DNA of 62,540 nt from Methylococcaceae bacterium (GTDB lineage Bacteria; Pseudomonadota; Gammaproteobacteria; Methylococcales; Methylomonadaceae): the NCBI GenBank assembly GCA_006844585.1, contig SPJM01000346.1:1-62540 (forward strand), given 5' to 3'. The position numbers and the translations under genes are program-made. Shown here one piece after another: positions 34,567 through 62,283 of the stretch (its first letter is position 1; each line of letters opens with the position of its first letter). The notes beneath the pieces were generated by a model, which made no database searches, had not been told where the DNA came from, and saw nothing but the letters and a program-made list of their open reading frames with translations.

Positions 34567-35874
34567 ATGTCAAAAGATACGCTATCGATAAGACATAATG
34601 GGACAGGGCATGAAGTTGAGTATCCATTGTTAAACGGGACGTTAGGAAAACAGACCGTTGATGTTCGCGGTTTGTACAAAGACTTAGATTGTTTCACTTA
34701 TGATGCCGGTTTTAAAGTAACGGCGAGTTGTAAAAGCAAAATTACTTATATTGACGGCGAAAAAGGAATTTTACTGTATCGGGGCTACCCGATTGAGCAA
34801 TTGGCTGAAAAATGTAGTTTTATAGAAGTCGCCTATTTATTAATGAATGGCGAGCTGCCGAATGTTGAACAGCTTGACTATTTTGATAATGAAATCAGGC
34901 ATCGCTCAATGCTGCATGAATCGTTGAGACATTTTTTTGAAGGTTTCAGTTACGATGCGCATCCAATGGCGATGTTGGTTGGCGTAGTAGGATCATTATC
35001 GGCGTTTTACCATAGCGAAATGGATATGAGCGACCCTGAGCATCGTCGGGTATGCGCGGCTAGAGTGTTGGGTAAAATGCCGACCATTGCCGCCGCCTCA
35101 TTTCGCCATTCGGTTGGCAAGCCCTTTGTGTATCCACGCTTGGATCTGGGCTATTGTGAAAACTTCTTGAATATGATGTTTTCCCGTTCATCGCCTAATT
35201 ATATTGATCCCAATTTTACGGTGGATGATAAACTTTCCAAGGCGCTGAATATATTGTTTATTTTGCATGCCGATCACGAGCAAAACGCCAGCACCTCGAC
35301 AGTCAGGCTTGCTGGCAGCACCGGCGCTAATCCCTATGCCTGCATTGCCGCCGGGGTTGCAGCTTTATGGGGACCGGCGCATGGCGGCGCTAATGAAGCA
35401 GTGTTGAATATGTTAGCTGAAATCGGCTCGGTTGATCGCATTCCGGAATTTATCGCCAGGGCAAAAGACAAAGACGATCCTTTCCGGTTAATGGGTTTCG
35501 GGCATCGGGTTTATAAAAATTTTGATCCTCGCGCAACGCTGATACGGAAAACATGCCACGATATTTTGGCCGACTCAAACAAAGATGATCCTTTATTTGA
35601 GTTGGCTTTGGAGTTGGAGGCTTTGGCTCTCAAAGATGATTATTTCATTGAAAAGAAACTTTATCCGAATGTAGATTTTTATTCGGGCATTATTTATAAA
35701 GCGTTAAACATTCCGGTCGAGATGTTTACGGTGATGTTCGCCATCGCGAGAAGCGCCGGTTGGTTGGCGCATTGGCTGGAAATGGTTTCAGCTGAGTCGG
35801 CGCCGATCGGTCGTCCGAGACAACTTTATTTAGGCGAGACTAACCGCGATGTTATTCCGTTAGCGGAAAGGTAA
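34567..35874 (+). CDS. gltA: citrate synthase, type II
   Basis: A 435-residue hexameric-type bacterial citrate synthase. Catalytic and substrate residues are visible as H234 in [13 protein letters not shown]313 in [14 protein letters not shown], and the C-terminal aspartate region ([16 protein letters not shown]); the N-terminal [26 protein letters not shown] belongs to the NADH-sensitive gammaproteobacterial type. It condenses oxaloacetate and acetyl-CoA in the TCA cycle. It precedes the sdh genes, so TCA genes are clustered; a GlcG-like and an sdhAF4-like gene lie between. Confidence 0.97.
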
Positions 35875-35904
35875 GCGCGGGTTAAGGATACGGAGAAAAA
35901 TAAT

Positions 35905-36300
35905 TTGGAAACGATATACAGGTTAACATTGGATGATGCGAAACGCGTTGCCAATGCTGCGGAAACAGAAGCTAAATTTAATCATTGGGATGTGGTGATA
36001 GCGATTGTCGATCAAGGTGGAAATCTACAATATTTACAACGAGAAAATGCTCAACTAGGCAGTATCGATGTGGCTATCAGCAAAGCCAAAACGGCGCTTT
36101 ATTTTAGAAGCCCTTCCAAAGCTTTGGAAAATATGGTCAGTGAAGGAAAGCTGGGCTATTTGGCGATACCGCAAATGTTGCCGGTGGGGGGAGGCGTTCC
36201 CCTGGTTCATCATGGACAAGTGGTCGGCGCAATCGGCGTTAGCGGGGTTAGTTCCGACGGAGACGGCAAAGTTGCACAAGCCGGCGCGAGAGCGCTATAG
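35905..36300 (+). CDS. GlcG/HbpS-family (DUF336) protein
   Basis: A 131-residue DUF336 protein: LTLDDAKRVANAAETEAKF, VVIAIVDQGGNLQYLQRENA, SIDVAISKAKTALYF and LPVGGGVPLVHHGQVVGAIGVSG are the classic blocks. Relatives include the haem-binding HbpS and the glycolate-locus GlcG; the exact function is unclear. The start is TTG with ggag at nine bases, and no ATG alternative keeps the first conserved block. It starts 30 bp after gltA and lies 8 bp before the sdhAF4-like ORF. Confidence 0.82.
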   Translation: METIYRLTLDDAKRVANAAETEAKFNHWDVVIAIVDQGGNLQYLQRENAQLGSIDVAISKAKTALYFRSPSKALENMVSEGKLGYLAIPQMLPVGGGVPLVHHGQVVGAIGVSGVSSDGDGKVAQAGARAL

Positions 36301-36308
36301 GATTCATT

Positions 36309-36476
36309 ATGCAGAAACAGCAGAAAAAATCAGAGCACCAGGCGGAAAAAAAGCTTGATGCTGTCGCGGAAGAAGTCGAACAGGAAGAACAGGTTGAAGA
36401 AATTGGCGGGGTAAAAGGACCAGAACCGACCCGTTTTGGCGACTGGGAAAAGAACGGGCGTTGCGTAGATTTTTAA
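36309..36476 (+). CDS. SdhAF4-like succinate dehydrogenase assembly factor (DUF1674)
   Basis: A 55-residue ORF, short enough to be missed. The N-terminal half is lysine/glutamate-rich (MQKQQKKSEHQAEKKLDAV), while the C-terminus is GPEPTRFGDWEKNGRCVDF, the DUF1674/SdhAF4 signature in full. In mitochondria SdhAF4 chaperones the flavinylated SdhA subunit before it joins SdhB. Here the gene lies 158 bp upstream of sdhC, with sdhE (the flavinylation factor) at the other end of the sdh operon, so two SDH assembly factors flank the complex. The family and location agree well. Confidence 0.85.
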   Translation: MQKQQKKSEHQAEKKLDAVAEEVEQEEQVEEIGGVKGPEPTRFGDWEKNGRCVDF

Positions 36477-36634
36477 CGCTTTTTGAGAAACATATTGTTC
36501 ACTGAAATAGCAAGGATTAAGGCGTTTTTTTCGGTGAATTTGTTCTATACTTGCTATAACCATATTACATATAGAGAAATTATTGCATCGCCTGCGGTGA
36601 TGCCTTTTCCTCATGATGCATTTGCCCCTACAAT

Positions 36635-37006
36635 ATGAATAATAACAGACCCCTATCACCTCATCTCGAAGTCTATAAATTACCGTTAACCGGTTTAGTT
36701 TCCATTACTCATCGAATGACCGGCGTTATGTTGTCATTCGGTTTGGTTTTTTTTGTATGCATAGTCTCTGCAATAGCCGGTGGCGAGTCGGCTTATCAAG
36801 GCATGCAGTCTTTAGTGGATAATTTTTTCTTTCGCATAATGCTTTGGGGATTTATCTACGCCTTGTTTTTTCATTTATGTCACGGCGTACGTCATTTAAT
36901 GTGGGATACCGGGGCAACGTTTGATTTGGAAACGCTCAATAAATACGCCATTATAGAATTGCAGGCTTCTGCTGTATTGACTATTTTGGCGTTCTTCATT
37001 TTATAA
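36635..37006 (+). CDS. sdhC: succinate dehydrogenase cytochrome b556 subunit
   Basis: A 123-residue membrane subunit with three transmembrane helices. RPLSPHLEVYKLPLTGLVSITHRMTG is the conserved N-terminal quinone-site region (HRMTG) and HLCHGVRHLMWD carries the haem b histidine and the RHxxWD motif. With SdhD it anchors the dehydrogenase and reduces ubiquinone. It is 13 bp before sdhD. A small stem (36585-36603) lies in its 5' leader. Confidence 0.95.
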   Translation: MNNNRPLSPHLEVYKLPLTGLVSITHRMTGVMLSFGLVFFVCIVSAIAGGESAYQGMQSLVDNFFFRIMLWGFIYALFFHLCHGVRHLMWDTGATFDLETLNKYAIIELQASAVLTILAFFIL

Positions 37007-37019
37007 CACCGGGAATAAT

Positions 37020-37400
37020 ATGATTTTTAAATCGCCTTTGGCCCGAGCGCAAGGCTTGGGTTCTGCCAATAAAGGCACCGGACATTGGTGGATGCAAAGG
37101 GTGACTGCGGTCGCTTTAATTCCATTGAGTTTCTGGGCGCTGAATTTACTAAGTTTAAGTTTTAACGCAGATTATCAGGAAACCATCGCCTGGTTGGATT
37201 CGCCTTTTAATATCGCTTGTATTATCGCCTGGATAGTCGCTGTTTTTTATCATGCGGCGTTAGGGCTACAAGTGGTGATTGAGGATTACGTTTCCACCGA
37301 ATGGATGAAAATTGTCGGCGTTTGGACGTCGAATTTGATTTTTGCATTTTTAGCACTGATTGCATTGATTGCAATGATTCGAATTATCGCGACAGGATGA
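37020..37400 (+). CDS. sdhD: succinate dehydrogenase membrane anchor subunit
   Basis: A 126-residue protein with three transmembrane helices; [25 protein letters not shown] at the N-terminus and [16 protein letters not shown] with the haem/quinone-proximal histidine and the conserved aspartate-tyrosine. Order sdhC-sdhD-sdhA-sdhB and tight spacing (4 bp to sdhA) confirm it. Confidence 0.94.
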
Positions 37401-37404
37401 AATA

Positions 37405-39189
37405 ATGACATCAGCATATAAAATAATTGAACATAAACATGATGTTGTTGTTGTCGGAGCCGGAGGAGCCGGTTTACGGGCGACTTTCGGCATGGTTGAA
37501 AAAGGCCTGAAAACGGCTTGCATCAGTAAAGTTTTTCCTACCCGGAGTCATACCGTCGCCGCTCAGGGAGGCATTAGCGCGGCTTTAGGCAATATGGGCG
37601 AAGATAATTGGCGCTTTCATATGTACGATACGGTGAAAGGCTCCGATTGGTTGGGCGACCAGGATGCCATCGAATATATGTGTCGTGAAGCGATACCCGC
37701 GATTATAGAATTGGAACATTATGGAGTGCCGTTTTCCAGAACGCCTGAAGGTAAAATTTATCAACGCGCATTCGGCGGCATGTCCACGCATTTTGGCAAA
37801 CATCAGGCACAAAGAACCTGTGCGGCGGCCGATGTGACCGGTCACGCTATTTTGCACACTTTATATCAGCAGGCATTGAAGCATAACGCCGAATTCTTTA
37901 TCGAATATATTGCCTTAGACTTAATCATGGATGGTGACGAGTGTCGAGGCGTTTTGGCTTGGTGTTTGGAAGACGGCAGCCTGCATTTATTTAGAGCCCA
38001 TCAAACGGTATTGGCCACCGGCGGCTACGGGCGTAGTTATTTCTCCTGCACTTCCGCGCATACGGTAACGGGCGACGGTAATGCGATGGTATTGCGCGCA
38101 GGTTTGCCTTTACAAGATATGGAGTTTGTACAATTCCACCCAACCGGGGTTTATGGTTCAGGCTGTTTGATTACCGAAGGGGTCAGAGGGGAAGGCGGTT
38201 ATTTGACCAATTCCGAAGGCGAGCGTTTTATGGAGCGTTATGCGCCGAATGCCAAAGATTTAGCGTCTCGCGATGTAGTGAGTCGTGCAATGACTATCGA
38301 AATTAATGAAGGCCGCGGCGTCGGGCCGGATAAAGATCATGCTTATTTGCATATCGAACATTTAGACCCGGCGATTATTCAAGAAAGATTGCCGGGCATT
38401 GCTGAGACGGCGCGTATTTTTGCCGGGGTCGATGTCACTAAAGAACCGATTCCTGTGTTGCCGACCGTCCACTACAATATGGGCGGCGTACCGACTAACT
38501 ATAAAGCGGAAGTGGTTACCTTAAAAGACGGCAATCCGGATACTATCGTGCCGGGTTTGATGGCGATCGGCGAAGCCGCTTGTGTTTCAGTGCATGGCGC
38601 TAATCGGTTGGGTTCCAATAGTTTGCTGGATTTAGTGGTTTTCGGTCGTTCCGCCGCACATCGTTGCGCTGAAATAATTAAGCCGGGTACGCCGCATAAA
38701 CCATTAGCCGCTGATGCTTGTGAAAAAGCTTTGGATCGCTTGGATAAGACCCGTTACGCCCAAGGCGAAAGGAAAACGGCGGATATACGCTTGGACATGC
38801 AGAAAGTCATGCAAAGCAAAGCCGCTGTGTTTAGAACGGGTGAAACCTTGAAGGCGGGCTGCGAGGACATGGCCAAGGTTGCGGAAACCTTTAAAGATGT
38901 TCAAGTGTCCGATTCTTCAATGATTTGGAATACCGACTTAGTGGAAACCTTGGAATTGGATAATTTATTATCACAAGCGACGGTTACCATTAATGCGGCG
39001 GCTAATCGCACTGAAAGCCGGGGCGGTCATGCTCGTGAAGATTTTGCTAAACGCGATGATCAAAACTGGATGAAACATACTTTAATCTCGCTGGATAAGC
39101 AACAGGTCAAAATTGATTATCGACCGGTGCATATGTATACATTAACGGATGAAGTCGACGTGATCCCACCAAAAGAGAGGGTATATTAA
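37405..39189 (+). CDS. sdhA: succinate dehydrogenase flavoprotein subunit
   Basis: A 594-residue flavoprotein. It has the FAD dinucleotide motif [15 protein letters not shown], the covalent-FAD histidine in [15 protein letters not shown], and active-site stretches [21 protein letters not shown] and [11 protein letters not shown]. It oxidises succinate to fumarate in the cytoplasm. Its stop overlaps the sdhB start by one base (TAATG). Normal length. Confidence 0.98.
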
Positions 39190-39974
39190 TGGTTGAATTT
39201 GTATTGCCCAAAAATTCAAGATTAACCAAAGGGAAAACTTTTAAAGCGCCGGAACAAGCGGTAAATGTTCGGGTTTTTGAGGTTTATCGTTGGGATCCTG
39301 ATACAGATGAAAATCCGCGAATAGATCGTTATGAGATTGATATGGATCATTGCGGCCCGATGGTGTTGGACGCCATTTTAAAAATCAAGAACGAAATCGA
39401 TTCGACTTTGACGTTTAGGCGTTCTTGTCGGGAAGGCGTGTGCGGTTCCTGCGCCATGAACATCAACGGCAAAAATACCTTAGCTTGCATCAAGGCGATA
39501 GATGATTATCAAGGCGTTATTAAGGTTTTTCCTCTGCCGCATATGGATGTGATTAAAGATTTGGTGGCGGATATGACGCATTTTTTTGCGCAATATGCTT
39601 CAATCAAGCCTTGGCTGGAAACGCAAACTCCGCCGCCAGCCGATACTGAACGTCTGCAAAGCAAAGAGGAGCGGGCGCGTTTGGATGGTTTATATGAATG
39701 TGTGCTATGCGCCTGTTGTTCGACCAGTTGTCCGAGTTATTGGTGGAACAGTGAGCGTTATTTGGGACCGGCTATTCTATTACAAGCTTATCGCTGGTTG
39801 TCCGATAGTCGCGATGAAAATACCGGTGAAAGATTGGATGAATTGGAAGATCCATTTAAACTATTTCGCTGCCACACCATTATGAATTGTACCGATACCT
39901 GTCCTAAAGGGTTAAATCCGGGGAAAGCCATTGCTGAAATCAAAAAGCAATTGGTGACCCGTCACGAGGGTTAA
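39189..39974 (+). CDS. sdhB: succinate dehydrogenase iron-sulfur subunit
   Basis: A 261-residue protein with all three cluster motifs: [21 protein letters not shown] (2Fe-2S), [16 protein letters not shown] (4Fe-4S) and [17 protein letters not shown] (3Fe-4S). It passes electrons from SdhA to the membrane subunits. It overlaps sdhA by one base and sdhE by one base, so all four genes are probably translated in coupled fashion. Confidence 0.98.
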
Positions 39975-41487: not shown

Positions 41488-43248
41488 ATGACGAAGGTTA
41501 AATCAATGAACTGGAATTCAGTTGGGATTAAGGTTATTTATCTCACATTTGTTTCTTTGCTGCTTATTTCGATTGTGGCGCTGTTTCTTTCTTATCAATC
41601 GGAAGAAAAAATACTGATTGCACAGAAGCGCGAGCAAGCTAAAAGTTTGCTTTTAGTCGCCGAATCGATTCGTTATAACATGATTGAAAAATGGCGCGCC
41701 GGTGTATATACAGCGGAACAATTAAAAGCATATAAAACGATTGAAGACTCTCAATTGCGATATGCGAAAACGATTGCATCGGTGCCGGTTGCAACTTCCT
41801 GGGAAATAGCAAAAGCGAAAGCCAAAGAAGGCGGGTTTGATTTCAAAGCGCCGAATATCAATGCTCGAAATCCGAAAAATGAAGCGAACGCCAAAGAACG
41901 CGAAATCCTGACTTATTTTCAACAAAATCCCCAGGCGACTGAATATAGTTATGTGGATAAAGTCAATTCCAAACTTTTTTATTTGCGTCCTGTTTATTTA
42001 AATAGCGAGTGCGAAGTTTGTCATGGCGATCCGGCCAGTTCCTTCAATATTTGGGAGAATCATGAAGGTAAGGATATTTTAGGATATACAATGGAAGGTA
42101 AAAAAGCGGGTGATTTACATGGCGCTTTTGAAATCATCACCCCGTTGGATGGCGTTTATGAGCAATTACATCAGACTATGTTGAAAAGAGTGGGGTTTGC
42201 TCTATTTATTATAGTTTTATTGATGGTTGGCTTATTTATGTTGATTAACCAAATTATCATCAAACCGCTGACCGATTTAGCTTTAAAGTTGCAGGATATT
42301 GCCGGGGGGGAAGGGAACTTAAAAGCTCGGTTGAATATTCCCGGTAAATCGGAATTTGCTTGGGTGGCGGGCAGTTTTAATGGTTTTGTAAAGAAAATAG
42401 CTAAAACCATTGCCCGGATTAATGAAATCAGCGAGCAATTGGCGGTTTCCGCGCATGATTTATCTACCATTACCCAAAACACTGAACAGGCCTTGGAAAA
42501 CCAGCAAGAAGCTACCGCTAAAGTTGCTTTGGCGATGAATGATATGTCTTCAACGGTTGAACATGTTTCTGCTAATGCTTCAACTGCATCGGAAGCGGCG
42601 GAGTCAGCCAACAAGGAATCATTGAGCGGAAGTCAAATCGTCGATCAAGCTGTTTCTGCAATCAATTCTTTAGCGAATGAGGTGGAAAGTGCGGCGAATG
42701 TGATTCAAGAACTGGAATCAGATAGTGAAAGCATCGGCGAAGTTTTAGGCGTTATTCAAGGGATTGCGGAACAAACGAATTTATTAGCGCTTAATGCGGC
42801 TATCGAGGCCGCTCGGGCCGGCGAACAAGGTCGAGGATTCGCGGTGGTCGCGGATGAAGTGCGTACTTTGGCCAGTCGCACCCAAAACTCTACCGAAGAA
42901 ATTCGTCAGACGATTGAGAGATTACAAGGAAGGGCAAAGACAGCCGCACAGGTGATGCAGCAGGGACGATCTCAGGCCAGTTCCAGTGTTGAGCAAGCCG
43001 CTTCCGCCGGCGATGCCTTAAATCGTATTAACGAAAAGATTAATATGATCAGCAGTATGAATTCACAAATTGCCTCATCTTCTGAACAACAAAGCAGCGC
43101 AAGCGCGGCAATACAGGATAATATCAACAATATCAATAATGTTTCATCCAGAACGGCTGAAGGCGCACATGCAACATCGGTTTCTAGTCAGCAATTAATG
43201 AGTTTGGCGGATGAATTACGCGAAACTGTTCATCAATTCAAGTTTTAA
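41488..43248 (+). CDS. methyl-accepting chemotaxis protein with haem-c DUF3365 sensor
   Basis: A 586-residue chemoreceptor: transmembrane helix ~14-36, a periplasmic DUF3365/Tll0287-like sensor (~40-230) with a c-type haem site C175-E-V-C178-H179, a second transmembrane helix (~235-258), HAMP (~258-312) and the cytoplasmic signalling domain, whose tip ([21 protein letters not shown], ~430-455) is fully conserved. The haem suggests redox, O2 or NO sensing coupled to CheA/CheW. No chemotaxis kinase gene is nearby. An ATG at 41506 has a better ribosome site (aagg, eight bases) than 41488 and would give 580 residues; either keeps all domains. Confidence 0.88.
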
Positions 43249-56245: not shown

Positions 56246-59200
56246 CTATCGGCTTATCGGGTCGTCTGCAATGGCTGTCGTTGATGTCTCGACAAGATTG
56301 TTTAATTGCTCGGTGATTTCGGCAAAGTCAGCCAGATTTTTTCGAGCGAACTCAATTTGGCCGTTTTGGTAGCTTGAAAATAATTCATTGGCTTGTCGAT
56401 GCATGATTTTATGCATGTTTTCAATTTCCGACTGTCGGTCTTTCTCAAAAATATTCAGTTGTTTGATTTGCTCAATCGACGCTCCGCAATGACATTTTGT
56501 TTCGTTGAGAATCGGCCACTGAATATTGTCTTCCGGAAACGAGCGAATTTTCGACGCAAAATTATGATGCCATTGGCGCAAGGTAAGTTTGAATATTTTG
56601 ATAATGCTTTGTCGTTCATTTAAAGCTGTTTTGGCAAAACTCATCCATTCTTGATAAGCTTCATAGTCGTTTAGCCATTGTTGGAAACCTTCAGGCGGCA
56701 TGGGCTTGGAAATGACATAGCCTTGGGCGAGGTGACAGCCCATTGTTATCAACATTATGCCGTGTTCCCGCGATTCCACGCCTTCAGCAATAACCTGACG
56801 ATTGAAGGCGTCGGCCAAGCCGATCACGCCGTTGATAATGTTGTAGTCATTGGGGTCATCCAGCAAGTCTCTGACAAAACTTTGATCAATTTTAATGGTA
56901 TCCGCCGGTAAGTTTCGTAAATGGGTTAAAGAAGAATAACCGGTGCCGAAATCATCCAATGCTACTTTCACGCCTAATGCTTGTATGCAGGTTTTGATAA
57001 TTCGGCTAATCGATTCAAGATCGCCTAAAGCGCTGCTTTCCAAAATTTCCAGTTGTACCGATTTTGAATCGACATTCGGGAACAACGCCAGCGAGGATTC
57101 CAGGTCGGTAATAAATGAAGAGTGTTGTAAGTGATTTGAAGAAATATTAATACTGACTTCTATATTTATGCCTTGCGTGTTCCAGAAATCCAGTTGTTTC
57201 AAAACCCGGTTGATCACCCAGCGGCCTACTTCTATTTCCAGTTCGCTGCCTTCAATTACCGGTAAAAATTCTAAGGGAGGAATCAGTCCTTTTTTAGGAT
57301 GGTTCCAACGGATCAATGCTTCGGCGCCGTAGACATGGCCGGTGTTCATGTTTACCTTGGGTTGATAATGTAAACTGAATTCATTGTCGATCAGAGCGCG
57401 GTTTATTTCAGTCAGCTTAATATTTTTTTGAATATATAAATGATCTTGTTCAATATTGAATAAATGAAAACGATTGCGGCCGGATAATTTGGCTTGATAC
57501 ATGGCCTGATCGGCATGCCGCATTAAAGTATCCAAGTCGGCGTTATCTCGAGGATAAAAGCTGACCCCGATCGATGCGCTAATGGAAATAGTATGGCCTT
57601 CAAAATTATAGGCTTTGATTAATGAATTTAAGATTCGGTTTAATAGCGTTTCACATTGGGCGTAACCTTCCAGATTGCCCAGTAATAATACAAACTCATC
57701 ACCGCCATGACGAGAAACTGTGTCTTCTTCCCGAATGTTCGATTTAATACGTTTAGCGACCTCAATGAGGAGTTCATCGCCTAATTCATGGCCGTACATA
57801 TCATTAACCGGCTTGAAATTATCCAAATCAAGAAAGCAAACAGCCAGTTCGGTGTGGTTGCGTTTGCATTGCGCCAAGGCTAGATCAAAGCGGTCGGCCA
57901 GCAATACCCGGTTCGGCAATTGGGTCAGCACATCATAATGCGCCATTTGCTCAAGAATTTCTTGTTGCTTTTTGGTTTGGGTGATGTCGGTAAAAATCCC
58001 GATATAATGAGAAGCATTGCCGTTGTCATCGAAAATAGAGGAAATTGATAATAGTTCGGCATATATAGACCCGTCTTTTTTGCGATTCCAAACCTCGCCT
58101 TGCCAATGTCCGTGTTGCCCTAAAGACTCCCACATCTCGGCATAAAAAGCTTTATCATGTTTGCCGGAATTTAAAATGCGCGGATTTTGGTTAATAATTT
58201 CATGCCGTGAATAGCCGGTGATTTTACAAAAAGCCGGGTTGACATCCATGATGTTGCCGTTTGTGTCGGTAATGGTAATGCCTTCATTGGTCTCGTTAAA
58301 TACCCGCGCCGACAACATCAATTGTTCTTCTACATTTTTACGCTCAGTAATGTCCATATGCGTGCCGATCATCCGCAATGGATCATGGTCTTCCGTCCAG
58401 GCGACAATTTTGCCTCGGGTTAATATCCAGATATAGCTGTTATCTTTACATCGGAGGCGATATTCATTTTCATAGCTTCCGGCGTCATGGTTCAGGTAAC
58501 GATTTAATTGGATATACACCCGGTCTCTATCCTCAGGGTGAATGCGTTTATCCCATTCGGATAAATCGTTATTGAGTTCATGTTCTTGATAACCCAGCAT
58601 TTCCTTAAAGCGACTAGAGAAATAGATTTCGTTGGAAGTGAGGTTCCAGTCCCAAACGCCTTCCTGACTACCTTCTAATGCAAATTGCCAGCGTTCTTCA
58701 CTCTTAGTTAATTCTTTGGTGCGGGCGCGGAATAATTGTTCAGCGCGCAGAGTGCGGCTGGTCAACATCAATAAGCCGATGGCAATCAGGCTGGCGATGA
58801 TCAAGCCGCCTAACAATATCCCCCCAGTTTTGTCAGCAATTTGAATGGGAACGATTTTTTCTAATTGAAAAAAACTGAAAATCAAAATATAAAAAATTAA
58901 TAAAGGATAGGCGACGAGTTGTCTGCGGTTATGCCAGCTATTACCCGGTTTATTGATAAATGTGAGCACAATGGGGGTGAAAATAATGATCCCGAAAATA
59001 TTGCCTAGCCATTTAATTGCCCAAAAGCTATGCAGAAGATTGGCGTCAATCGCCCCGATAAAATAATGAGATGCCGTATTAATGGTTGGCGCTACCATGC
59101 TGCTAATTAACGCCCCGTAAAAGAAAAAATAAAATATTTTTCGGTCTTCAATTAACGGGTCGTTTTTACCGATGATCCGATTGATTAAAAAAGCGCCGAA

Positions 59201-59515
59201 AGAAGCTTGCAAGCAGGCGCCTACGGCGATGATAACGCCGAATGCTAATGACTGCTCTAAAGTCAATGCGGGTAGCGTGTTGAGTAATAAATAAAACTCC
59301 AGTGAAAATGCGCCGATTAATAAGCCGAGCAGGATAGATGCGCCATAGACTAGAAACGCCGCCAATGCTAAACCGGCAGTCGGCCAAATTAGACTAGCCT
59401 GACTGGATTCAACAAACAATAAAAGACCGAACCAGCCTAAAACAAAATAACTGCAGCCGATCAGTAGATTAGTTTTGAAAAAACTAACTGTTTTGTTGAA
59501 TGGGTAATTTAGCAA
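56246..59515 (-). CDS. MASE1-PAS-PAS-GGDEF-EAL protein with C-terminal CZB-like domain
   Basis: A 1089-residue membrane signalling protein: MASE1 sensor with ~8 helices (1-260), two PAS/PAC units (~275-395 and ~400-520), GGDEF at 604-608 (RHGGDEF, with an I-site R595-E-E-D598), and an EAL domain starting at E732-A-L. The last ~120 residues resemble the chemoreceptor zinc-binding (CZB) domain: H983/H984, C1008 or C1010, H1035 and H1039, where C1008 and the two following histidines have the 27 and 4 spacing of known CZB domains. Both GGDEF and EAL motifs look intact, so it may make or degrade c-di-GMP, with zinc, redox or O2 input. A single gene, facing the beta-CASP gene tail-to-tail. Confidence 0.88.
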   Translation of the reverse strand: MLNYPFNKTVSFFKTNLLIGCSYFVLGWFGLLLFVESSQASLIWPTAGLALAAFLVYGASILLGLLIGAFSLEFYLLLNTLPALTLEQSLAFGVIIAVGACLQASFGAFLINRIIGKNDPLIEDRKIFYFFFYGALISSMVAPTINTASHYFIGAIDANLLHSFWAIKWLGNIFGIIIFTPIVLTFINKPGNSWHNRRQLVAYPLLIFYILIFSFFQLEKIVPIQIADKTGGILLGGLIIASLIAIGLLMLTSRTLRAEQLFRARTKELTKSEERWQFALEGSQEGVWDWNLTSNEIYFSSRFKEMLGYQEHELNNDLSEWDKRIHPEDRDRVYIQLNRYLNHDAGSYENEYRLRCKDNSYIWILTRGKIVAWTEDHDPLRMIGTHMDITERKNVEEQLMLSARVFNETNEGITITDTNGNIMDVNPAFCKITGYSRHEIINQNPRILNSGKHDKAFYAEMWESLGQHGHWQGEVWNRKKDGSIYAELLSISSIFDDNGNASHYIGIFTDITQTKKQQEILEQMAHYDVLTQLPNRVLLADRFDLALAQCKRNHTELAVCFLDLDNFKPVNDMYGHELGDELLIEVAKRIKSNIREEDTVSRHGGDEFVLLLGNLEGYAQCETLLNRILNSLIKAYNFEGHTISISASIGVSFYPRDNADLDTLMRHADQAMYQAKLSGRNRFHLFNIEQDHLYIQKNIKLTEINRALIDNEFSLHYQPKVNMNTGHVYGAEALIRWNHPKKGLIPPLEFLPVIEGSELEIEVGRWVINRVLKQLDFWNTQGINIEVSINISSNHLQHSSFITDLESSLALFPNVDSKSVQLEILESSALGDLESISRIIKTCIQALGVKVALDDFGTGYSSLTHLRNLPADTIKIDQSFVRDLLDDPNDYNIINGVIGLADAFNRQVIAEGVESREHGIMLITMGCHLAQGYVISKPMPPEGFQQWLNDYEAYQEWMSFAKTALNERQSIIKIFKLTLRQWHHNFASKIRSFPEDNIQWPILNETKCHCGASIEQIKQLNIFEKDRQSEIENMHKIMHRQANELFSSYQNGQIEFARKNLADFAEITEQLNNLVETSTTAIADDPISR

Positions 59516-59969
59516 AATTTAATGCGAATCTAAATGATTAAAACTATAGGCAGCAATAAGTATAAAAAGTTACCAGGAAAATTGTCTTAGTCCGGCTTTT
59601 CAAAACCACAGGCTGTTTTAATTGCGAAATTAATGTAAATGGATGCTTACATGCCATTTCAATTGTAGTTCATAACAAAATTTACACAGAATTAATTAAA
59701 GGACTATTTTTAGGAATAAAAATAAAAATGTGCGCGATACTAGGACAAACTCGGAATTTCATCTAAGCTTTAGTCAGGAATGGGAATTTTATAACTTATG
59801 CATTCTGACTTGCCGTTTTGTCCGGCTTCGGCGTTGCGAAAACAGTTACATAGTTCACTATGCGCCTGTTTCCGCGGCTTGAAGCCAAACAAAAATCCTG
59901 CGCCATAATGCATAAGTTATTTCATCCCCATTCCTTAACCAAAAAAAGTCTAAATTTCCCAGGTGGATT
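59516..59969. other. 454-bp divergent intergenic region
   Basis: Carries the start-side regulatory DNA of the MASE1 gene (minus strand), an AT-rich stretch of about 250 bp without visible motifs, and the fourth palindromic element (59776-59935), which ends 34 bp before the next plus-strand start codon. Confidence 0.5.
59776..59935 (+). repeat. palindromic element, copy R4 (160 bp)
   Basis: Fourth copy, two bases longer than the others: one extra base in each outer arm. Termini aggaatggg / ccccattcct, outer stem aacttatgcattctg against cataatgcataagtt, second stem tttgtccggcttcgg against cttgaagccaaacaaa, and the core cagttacatagttcactatgcgcctg. The conserved blocks are shared with R1-R3 while the arm words differ completely from them. 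Confidence 0.85.
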
Positions 59970-60593
59970 ATGAACACCATGAAAGTTAATAACGCTAAAT
60001 CACATTTTGTCGCTGTTGCCTCTATTGCCGCGGAACTGAGCGCGGTGATGGAAGTGGCTAAAGAAATTTCATTAGCCGCTGCAAATGCTAAAGCGATCGC
60101 TTTTAGAGCCGGCGAAAAAGCTAAAGGATTCCAGCCCATTACCGATTTTATTAATGAATTAGCAAAAGAGACGATTGAATTGGTCAATGATATTAACCAA
60201 CATGCTTTCAGGCTATATCAATTAACGGTAAATGAACACCGGATGAGCGGGGCTTATTATAAATTTGAACAAGTCGCGCAAAATTCAACCAAAATGCACT
60301 ATGCGAGCTCGTTAACCAAGCCGTTGAATCGAGCAAAAATTAATATGTTGGAATGCAGAAAAGAATTTAACCAAAGTTTGAGCCGGTTATTAGAACAATT
60401 GGCTGAAGTGATGCATCCGGCCAGAGCGGCCAGAGTGATTGCCGCTAACTCGCGTATTGAAGCCTCGCAAGCGGGAGAATATCTACAAGGTCTACAAGCT
60501 GTTGCGGAAAGTGTTGATCACGCCGCGCAAGTCATCCATGAAAAAGTTCAAAAATGTCGTAGCGCCTTAAGCGTTATCAATTTGGACAGCTAA
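59970..60593 (+). CDS. short helical protein with two chemoreceptor-tip-like segments
   Basis: A 207-residue cytoplasmic, nearly all-helical protein without membrane segments. Residues 34-56 (SLAAANAKAIAFRAGEKAKG) and 155-180 (RVIAANSRIEASQAGEYLQG) each resemble the hairpin tip of methyl-accepting chemotaxis proteins ([19 protein letters not shown]), including the A-x-N and xAGExxxG pattern. Between them is a ~100-residue linker with a TKMHY and a histidine-rich turn. It lacks most residues of a full receptor. It is followed 32 bp later by a di-iron ODP-type gene. The function is unknown; a role in signalling is inferred. Confidence 0.68.
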   Translation: MNTMKVNNAKSHFVAVASIAAELSAVMEVAKEISLAAANAKAIAFRAGEKAKGFQPITDFINELAKETIELVNDINQHAFRLYQLTVNEHRMSGAYYKFEQVAQNSTKMHYASSLTKPLNRAKINMLECRKEFNQSLSRLLEQLAEVMHPARAARVIAANSRIEASQAGEYLQGLQAVAESVDHAAQVIHEKVQKCRSALSVINLDS

Positions 60594-60625
60594 TTAAAAC
60601 TTTACGCAGATAGGGTAGAAGCGCA

Positions 60626-61360
60626 ATGAAAATTACCAAAATTTACGAAGGAGCGTACCAATGGATAATGTATGGACGCGACCCAAATAAGCCCGAAAAG
60701 ATTATTGACACCAACCAATATGCGGTTAGGACTAAAAAAAGATGTTTGCTGATTGATCCGGGAGGCGTGGAACTGTTTGCGCCCATGTTGTCGGCTGTAT
60801 TGCATGATGCGCCGGTAGAAGAAATAACTGATTTATTCGCTTCCCATCAGGATCCCGATATTATTTCTTCACTAGGCTTATGGGATCAAGCCCTACCCAA
60901 CGCCAAGCTCCATGCTTCCGGTTTATGGGAAGGGTTCCTTAGACATTTTGGTTGTGAAAATATTGAATATATCCCAATCGCTGACAACGGTGGGGTCATT
61001 AGTTTGGATAACGTTGAAATTCAAATTGTACCGGCTCATTATCTTCACGCCTCAGCGAATTTTCATTTATACGACCCTGAAGCGAAAATTTTTATGTCAG
61101 GTGATGTCGGCGCTGCTCTTGAACCCGCTGGAGTTCCCGTTTTCGTTGAAGATTTTGACTCGCATATCGAAAAAATGCGTTTTTTCCACCAGCGTTGGAT
61201 GCCATCCGAACAAGCTAAAAGAGTTTGGATCGATAAAGTAAGAGATTTGGAGATTGACATTTTAGCGCCCCAACATGGTAGAATGTTCCAAGGTGATGAT
61301 GTAAAAAGATTTTTAGACTGGTTTGAAGGCTTGCAAATTGGTATGGCGATTAAAAATTAA
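60626..61360 (+). CDS. oxygen-binding di-iron protein of the flavodiiron MBL family (ODP-like)
   Basis: A 244-residue MBL-fold protein lacking a flavodoxin domain. The di-iron ligand set of flavodiiron proteins can be read as H74, D76, D78, H138, D160 and H217 (in SHQDPD, PAHYLHAS, SGDVGAA and APQHGRM). Stand-alone ODP proteins of this type act as O2/iron sensors; in Treponema denticola one is associated with a cytosolic chemoreceptor. Here it follows a protein with chemoreceptor-tip-like segments by 32 bp, so an O2-sensing pair is plausible. It lacks the flavin partner needed for O2/NO reduction. Confidence 0.82.
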   Translation: MKITKIYEGAYQWIMYGRDPNKPEKIIDTNQYAVRTKKRCLLIDPGGVELFAPMLSAVLHDAPVEEITDLFASHQDPDIISSLGLWDQALPNAKLHASGLWEGFLRHFGCENIEYIPIADNGGVISLDNVEIQIVPAHYLHASANFHLYDPEAKIFMSGDVGAALEPAGVPVFVEDFDSHIEKMRFFHQRWMPSEQAKRVWIDKVRDLEIDILAPQHGRMFQGDDVKRFLDWFEGLQIGMAIKN

Positions 61361-61548: not shown

Positions 61549-61568
61549 ATGCTTGGCGCTTTATCAAT

Positions 61569-61671
<103 letters not shown>

Positions 61672-61764: not shown

Positions 61765-61911
61765 TCCAGTATCAAAAAAATTTACTATTTATGGCGACCA
61801 TATCTGAAAGATCCAAAAGATGACTTGGTATTAGAAGTTGCTGTGGAGTCACAAAGTAAATATATCATTACGCATAACAAATGCGATTTCAAAAATTGTA
61901 ATAAATTTGGG
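61765..61911 (+). pseudogene. PIN-domain toxin, C-terminal fragment
   Basis: An open frame of 49 codons without start reading IKKIYYLWRPYLKDPKDDLV then LEVAVESQSKYIITHNKCDF. It matches the C-terminal half of the COG1569-type PIN toxin family (WRPxLKDPxDDMVLExA, IVTHNxxDF with the acidic site). It has lost its N-terminal half upstream (a stop at 61762 and no start) and is cut at codon 49, just before the IS1-like sequence. It would have been an RNase of a toxin-antitoxin pair. Confidence 0.75.
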
Positions 61912-61965
61912 TGGTGGGTCGAATTTGTAGATTTCTGGTATACTCAAAACCTATGCTATCAAATA

Positions 61966-62283
61966 ATCCATTGTCCTTATTGTGACGATACTAAAATAAC
62001 CAAATCTGGAAAAAGTAGTACCGGTACACAACGCTATTTTCGCCAGAATACCGAATGCGAAACCAAGACATTTCAACTTGACTATCAGTATAAAGCCTGT
62101 GAAGCAGGCATGACAGAAAAAATAGTTGAAATGGATATTAATGCCACCGGCGTTAGAGACACCGCTCGTGTTCTTAAAATTAACCAGAACACCGTTATCA
62201 ATACGTTAAAAAAAAAGAAAACAGCATTGTTCAGGTTAATCCAAACTGTCAAATTCCAACAGCTGATGCTGAAGCTCATGTAG
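61966..62283 (+). pseudogene. IS1 InsA-like ORF, non-canonical start and damaged zinc knuckle
   Basis: IS1-family InsA segment, about 105 codons up to TAG at 62281-62283. It is joined in frame to the upstream PIN fragment, giving a chimeric ORF of 152 codons from 61825 that does not reflect one gene. InsA normally is the DNA-binding part and repressor. The frame continues to a helix-turn-helix (VRDTARVLKINQNTVINTLKKKK). Confidence 0.78.

Follow-up and report, generated by a model that had tools for sequence, protein, structure and literature searches.

In Treponema denticola, an ODP has been described as an oxygen sensor for chemotaxis, and the receptor to which it is coupled, which has no transmembrane or sensing module, modulates CheA (PMC7666581). 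The two partners are the ODP TDE2498 and the cytoplasmic receptor TDE2496 (PMC7666581), and ODP-receptor operons occur in two gene orders, according to the summary of Muok et al. 2019 given in PMC7319448. Natural MCP signalling domains in which two receptor signalling subunits lie in one soluble chain have been described from Rhodospirillum centenum and a handful of other sources, with a role that was called unknown, and an engineered single-chain Tsr, likewise a fused dimer, signals and still controls CheA (PMC4692393).

We analysed a window of 62,540 nucleotides (the whole stretch of DNA under study) from a Methylococcaceae bacterium and focused on a gene for a 207-residue protein with two chemoreceptor-tip-like segments (hereafter, the double-tip protein), which is followed after a gap of 32 bp by an ODP-family gene on the same strand (Table 1). 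As in T. denticola, the ODP gene adjoins a receptor-like gene without a transmembrane or sensor segment, and the precedent invoked by the initial annotation, an ODP working with a cytosolic chemoreceptor, was already on record (PMC7666581). The partner here differs from TDE2496 in being a single chain of about 200 residues with an MCP score under the cut-off; it carries two asymmetric tips, and the tip-paired ODPs form a separate gammaproteobacterial clade. The trait of the soluble single-chain receptors, two tips in one soluble chain, is found in the 207-residue protein. The natural single-chain domains, however, have been described as resembling constructs with two kinase-control subunits, whereas here there are only tip-length arms (about 50 residues) and a fixed partner, the putative sensor. 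The engineered Tsr differs from the window protein in being artificial, membrane-bound and made of the same subunit twice.

Table 1 Features of the double-tip and ODP gene pair in the window.
Feature	Position	Strand	Details
Double-tip pseudo-receptor gene	59970..60593	+	ORF, 207 aa; MCP-tip homology of both halves; AF2 helices
Tip 1 core	60060..60149	+	Residues 31-60, KEISLAAANAKAIAFRAGEKAKGFQPITDF; Tsr N381 and R388 equivalents kept, position 385 not acidic
Tip 2 core	60423..60512	+	Residues 152-181; E385 equivalent kept (E164), position 388 variable
ODP-family di-iron MBL-fold protein gene	60626..61360	+	244 aa; Pfam PF19583, 225 bits; PDB 6qrq, E 4e-60
ODP ligand motif H74-Q-D76-P-D78	60845..60859	+	Translation, comparison with solved ODPs
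Other ODP ligands	H138 61037-61039; D160 61103-61105; Q216/H217 61271-61276	+	

The Pfam MCPsignal model matched the 207-residue protein with an E-value of 5e-7 and 30.1 bits, under the curated cut-off of 34.6, and other double-tip members scored 14.7-32.9 bits or gave no match. As none of those tested reached the cut-off, such proteins may go unnoticed in surveys that rely on domain models. The PDB matches of the protein were MCP tips. The two halves were compared with each other and with MCPs by hhalign, using a profile of 26 homologues with reversed and shuffled controls. Half 1 (residues 18-82) matched the MCPs of the same genome with an E-value of 4.7e-7 and 93% probability, and half 2 (residues 156-203) matched the same MCP tip with an E-value of 7.6e-5 and 62% probability (reversed control, 0.023). 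Against each other, the halves aligned in register (E 0.0026; reversed control, 0.27; six column shuffles, 0.03-0.73). Judged against these controls, the second tip segment is real but weaker than the first, and the two tip-like segments noted in the initial annotation thus both align in register with MCP tips. Its further statement that the protein has no sensor or membrane part also agreed with our searches, in which no sensor domain or transmembrane segment was found in the 207 residues and four predicted helices make up the bundle.

An AF2 model of the double-tip protein, made from a shallow alignment of 26 rows, has helices at residues 3-51, 54-105, 112-165 and 169-204 with a pLDDT of 88, and the breaks between them fall at both tip motifs and at a single connector. 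The structure prediction called for at the outset accordingly gave a bundle of helical hairpins with turns at both tips. In VIA-align, a designed single-chain four-helix bundle matched 178 residues of the model at 2.0 Å. Designed bundles of this kind headed the fold matches, which also included generic helical bundles; since high scores come readily to such folds, the matches support the topology and not the function. The fold search compares PDB chains singly, so an MCP dimer cannot appear among its matches. A Shewanella homologue, 30% identical, was likewise modelled as a bundle. DSSP shows no break at tip 1 in that model, but 171 of its residues superpose at 2.1 Å on bundles with an up-down-up-down course, which argues against a straight 98-residue helix. 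These models predict that the double-tip protein is an antiparallel four-helix bundle, resembling an MCP dimer tip fused into one chain.

The two tips are not equivalent. Residue conservation was counted over 44 diverse double-tip members, and the position equivalent to Tsr N381 was Asn in all 44 at tip 1 and in only 20 at tip 2. Position 385 was Glu in none of them at tip 1 and in 38 at tip 2, and Arg at position 388 (36/44 at tip 1) was variable at tip 2. Across the 26 aligned homologues, R162, E164 and A165 were invariant. A co-change of Q46/V164 with R46/E164 was dismissed as weak evidence because it involved only four sequences. A title cited in PMC4632190 names N381 as a key residue for trimer contact in Tsr, and a receptor model has an ionic lock between dimers that is formed by the homologues of E385 and R388' (PMC8144572). 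Given these published roles, the division of N381, E385 and R388 between the tips can reasonably be read as a fused, specialised pair with a fixed orientation. A more tentative idea, which we raise without favouring it, is that the protein might be a natural receptor pseudo-dimer with specialised halves (the N381 and R388 equivalents in tip 1, E385 in tip 2), whose orientation in the receptor trimer would then be set, giving a free di-iron sensor control of the array through one defined face.

The MBL fold of ODPs is related to that of flavodiiron proteins. The 244-residue protein scored 225 bits against the Pfam ODP model, with a curated cut-off of 27.2, and its alignment with two solved ODPs (6qrq and 6qnm) spanned the full length. 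All six di-iron ligands listed by the initial annotation (H74, D76, D78, H138, D160 and H217) are present, and with Q216 they form the set HDDHD-QH, identical to that of the two solved proteins. The reported absence of a flavodoxin domain, which sets the protein apart from the flavodiiron proteins, was borne out by Pfam, which found the MBL fold only. Not every ODP of the clade keeps all the ligands, with H74 changed to N in two loci (L049 and L075), D160 to S in two others (L044 and L048), and Q at position 138 in one further ODP. The tip gene is intact at the four loci with H74N or D160S despite the changed iron ligand.

The double-tip gene and the ODP gene are a conserved unit. Among 151 relatives, both genes were found in 48 genomes and one gene alone in none, and the tip gene was detected within 1.5 kb of 49 out of 50 close-ODP loci. 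At the fiftieth locus (L200), two diverged tip-like ORFs lie upstream of the ODP gene, and the tandem arrangement at L200:3431-4638 continues with ODP and PAS-MCP genes. In a wider sample of ODPs from 369 gammaproteobacterial genomes, a tip-like ORF was directly upstream in 30/30 cases that scored 274 or more against the ODP profile (locus L113 coming from a separate search) and in none of about 70 with a score of 231 or lower. The tip-paired ODPs make up one side of a branch with an SH-aLRT support of 99.9, and the solved ODPs fall outside. A phylum sample yielded six gammaproteobacterial loci beyond the window, all paired and one of them already in the earlier samples, and one distant ODP outside Gammaproteobacteria with no tip gene. 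The conserved synteny that the initial annotation proposed to look for is thus without exception in the genomes sampled. The pair was also present in plasmid records of Shewanella aestuarii and Pseudoalteromonas xiamenensis, where it is annotated as a hypothetical or chemotaxis protein and an MBL fold hydrolase.

In relatives, the pair is often part of a chemotaxis operon, which supports the chemotactic role first suggested for it. The longest gene run, at loci L197 and L201, reads CheY, CheA, CheW, PAS-MCP, CheW, ParA, STAS, CheR, CheD, CheB, MCP, STAS, SpoIIE-REC, tip and ODP (CheY is outside the stretch examined for L201, and ParA was not detected in L197). The order is ParA-STAS-CheR-CheD-CheB-tip-ODP in Methylobacter and CheR-CheD-CheB-tip-ODP at L075, L077 and L196, and tip-ODP stands ahead of CheA-CheW-ParA in family f7 (L195 and L199). 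The gene directly after ODP is CheR at L095 and L108 and MCP at L180 and L181. CheW was located on the same contig within 16 kb of at least 23 of the 49 tip loci, and it was present in 47/48 genomes with the pair and 76/103 others, counts that ignore phylogeny. The sole pair genome without CheW (G049) is a Bathymodiolus brooksi gill symbiont in which the ODP gene is frameshifted and the tip gene interrupted, its first part replaced, in our reading, by a putative IS200-like remnant. In many Methylomonas relatives, the pair is beside queE/queC instead of che genes. The window genome has a matching che cluster on another contig (C269) from which the pair is absent, and the pair in the window is not beside che genes. 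It has separated from the che cluster that it closes in many relatives, and its cognate array is accordingly deduced from them. A separate feature of three che clusters (L066, L197 and L201) is the presence of ParA (again excepting L197), two STAS proteins and a REC-SpoIIE-HATPase, a partner-switch branch inside the chemotaxis operon.

The fixed co-occurrence and the frequent che operons indicate that the pair probably informs the steering machinery of oxygen or iron inside the cell. We favour, with moderate confidence, the reading that the pair gives the chemotaxis array a soluble input module for O2/Fe(II), which the T. denticola precedent and the control of CheA by the engineered Tsr support. 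Counting against it, the pair in the window lies apart from che genes and that of many Methylomonas relatives beside queE/queC, all members tested score under the MCP cut-off, and a few ODPs of the clade lack a ligand. The di-iron site of the ODP would bind iron and O2, presumably sensing O2 or Fe(II), and the resulting state would be handed on to the double-tip protein, in this view a receptor cut down to its signalling end. The double-tip bundle would then join receptor trimers, or bind CheW/CheA, via tip 1, and CheA activity would be altered. We infer that iron and O2 binding, contact between the ODP and the tip protein, insertion into the array and the direction of the signal follow this course.

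Joining the array would be unneeded if the double-tip protein were a cytoplasmic competitor of the receptors for CheW/CheA, released or held by the ODP according to O2. Its small size and solubility, the split and degenerate trimer-contact residues and a consensus methylation motif in only 2 of the 44 members (a weak test, since the same motif occurs in only 7 of the 18 real-MCP segments extracted) are compatible with such a role. We nevertheless consider it unlikely, as the key trimer-contact Asn is kept at tip 1 without exception and the corresponding receptor of T. denticola is believed to become part of arrays (PMC7666581). The pair might instead act mainly on an adjoining STAS/SpoIIE-type partner switch and not on CheA, since family f7 and many Methylomonadaceae have SpoIIE-REC and STAS genes beside tip-ODP. 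This seems quite unlikely given that other tip-ODP loci have CheR-CheD-CheB directly upstream, CheR or MCP directly downstream, or none of these, and that the tip shares its homology with the end of receptors that binds CheA/CheW.

The kinship with flavodiiron proteins would also suit an ODP that is an enzyme reducing O2, NO or peroxide, with the helical protein merely its scaffold. The missing flavodoxin domain, the strict pairing with a receptor-derived protein and the broken state of both genes in the only pair genome that lacks CheW make this very unlikely. It is hardly credible that the second tip merely resembles one by coiled-coil chance and that the protein is a common helical bundle whose sole tip is vestigial. 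Half 2 is indeed the weaker match to MCPs, but its in-register alignment beats the reversed and shuffled controls, three of its residues are invariant among the homologues, and AF2 predicts a turn at its tip.

In the literature beyond Muok et al. 2019, we found no description of a double-tip family with this asymmetry or of its constant association with a single ODP clade. The initial annotation took the pairing to be new, and this holds in part: soluble single-chain receptors were already known (PMC4692393), whereas the fixed combination of double-tip protein and ODP, the asymmetric tip conservation and the operon context appear to be new. A natural single-chain soluble receptor thereby gains a fixed candidate sensor partner and a testable role, where PMC4692393 called the role unknown. 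The soluble input module that we prefer also suggests a way in which methanotrophs and other Gammaproteobacteria may guide chemotaxis by a di-iron protein in the cytoplasm.

Upstream of the double-tip gene, no flagellar sigma-28 promoter match was found in 59464-59969, and the only matches at the pair were loose ones (3 mismatches) within the double-tip gene, with window-wide matches outnumbering those in shuffles. A MASE1-PAS-GGDEF-EAL protein (56246-59515, - strand), whose last 150 residues match CZB weakly (E 0.4, below cut-off), is encoded divergently from the pair. The pair is followed by a tRNA-Lys (TTT) gene, right after which lies an array of about 15 copies of TCCAGTT (61568-61671), and an IS1-type InsA-like ORF (HTH_Tnp_IS1; 61825-62283, + strand) is at the window end. 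An MCP at 41488-43248 (+ strand), encoded after the genes for citrate synthase and sdh (34567-39974), has a Tll0287-like periplasmic domain and a CEVCH motif at residue 175, a possible c-type haem site, and is possibly a second redox receptor.
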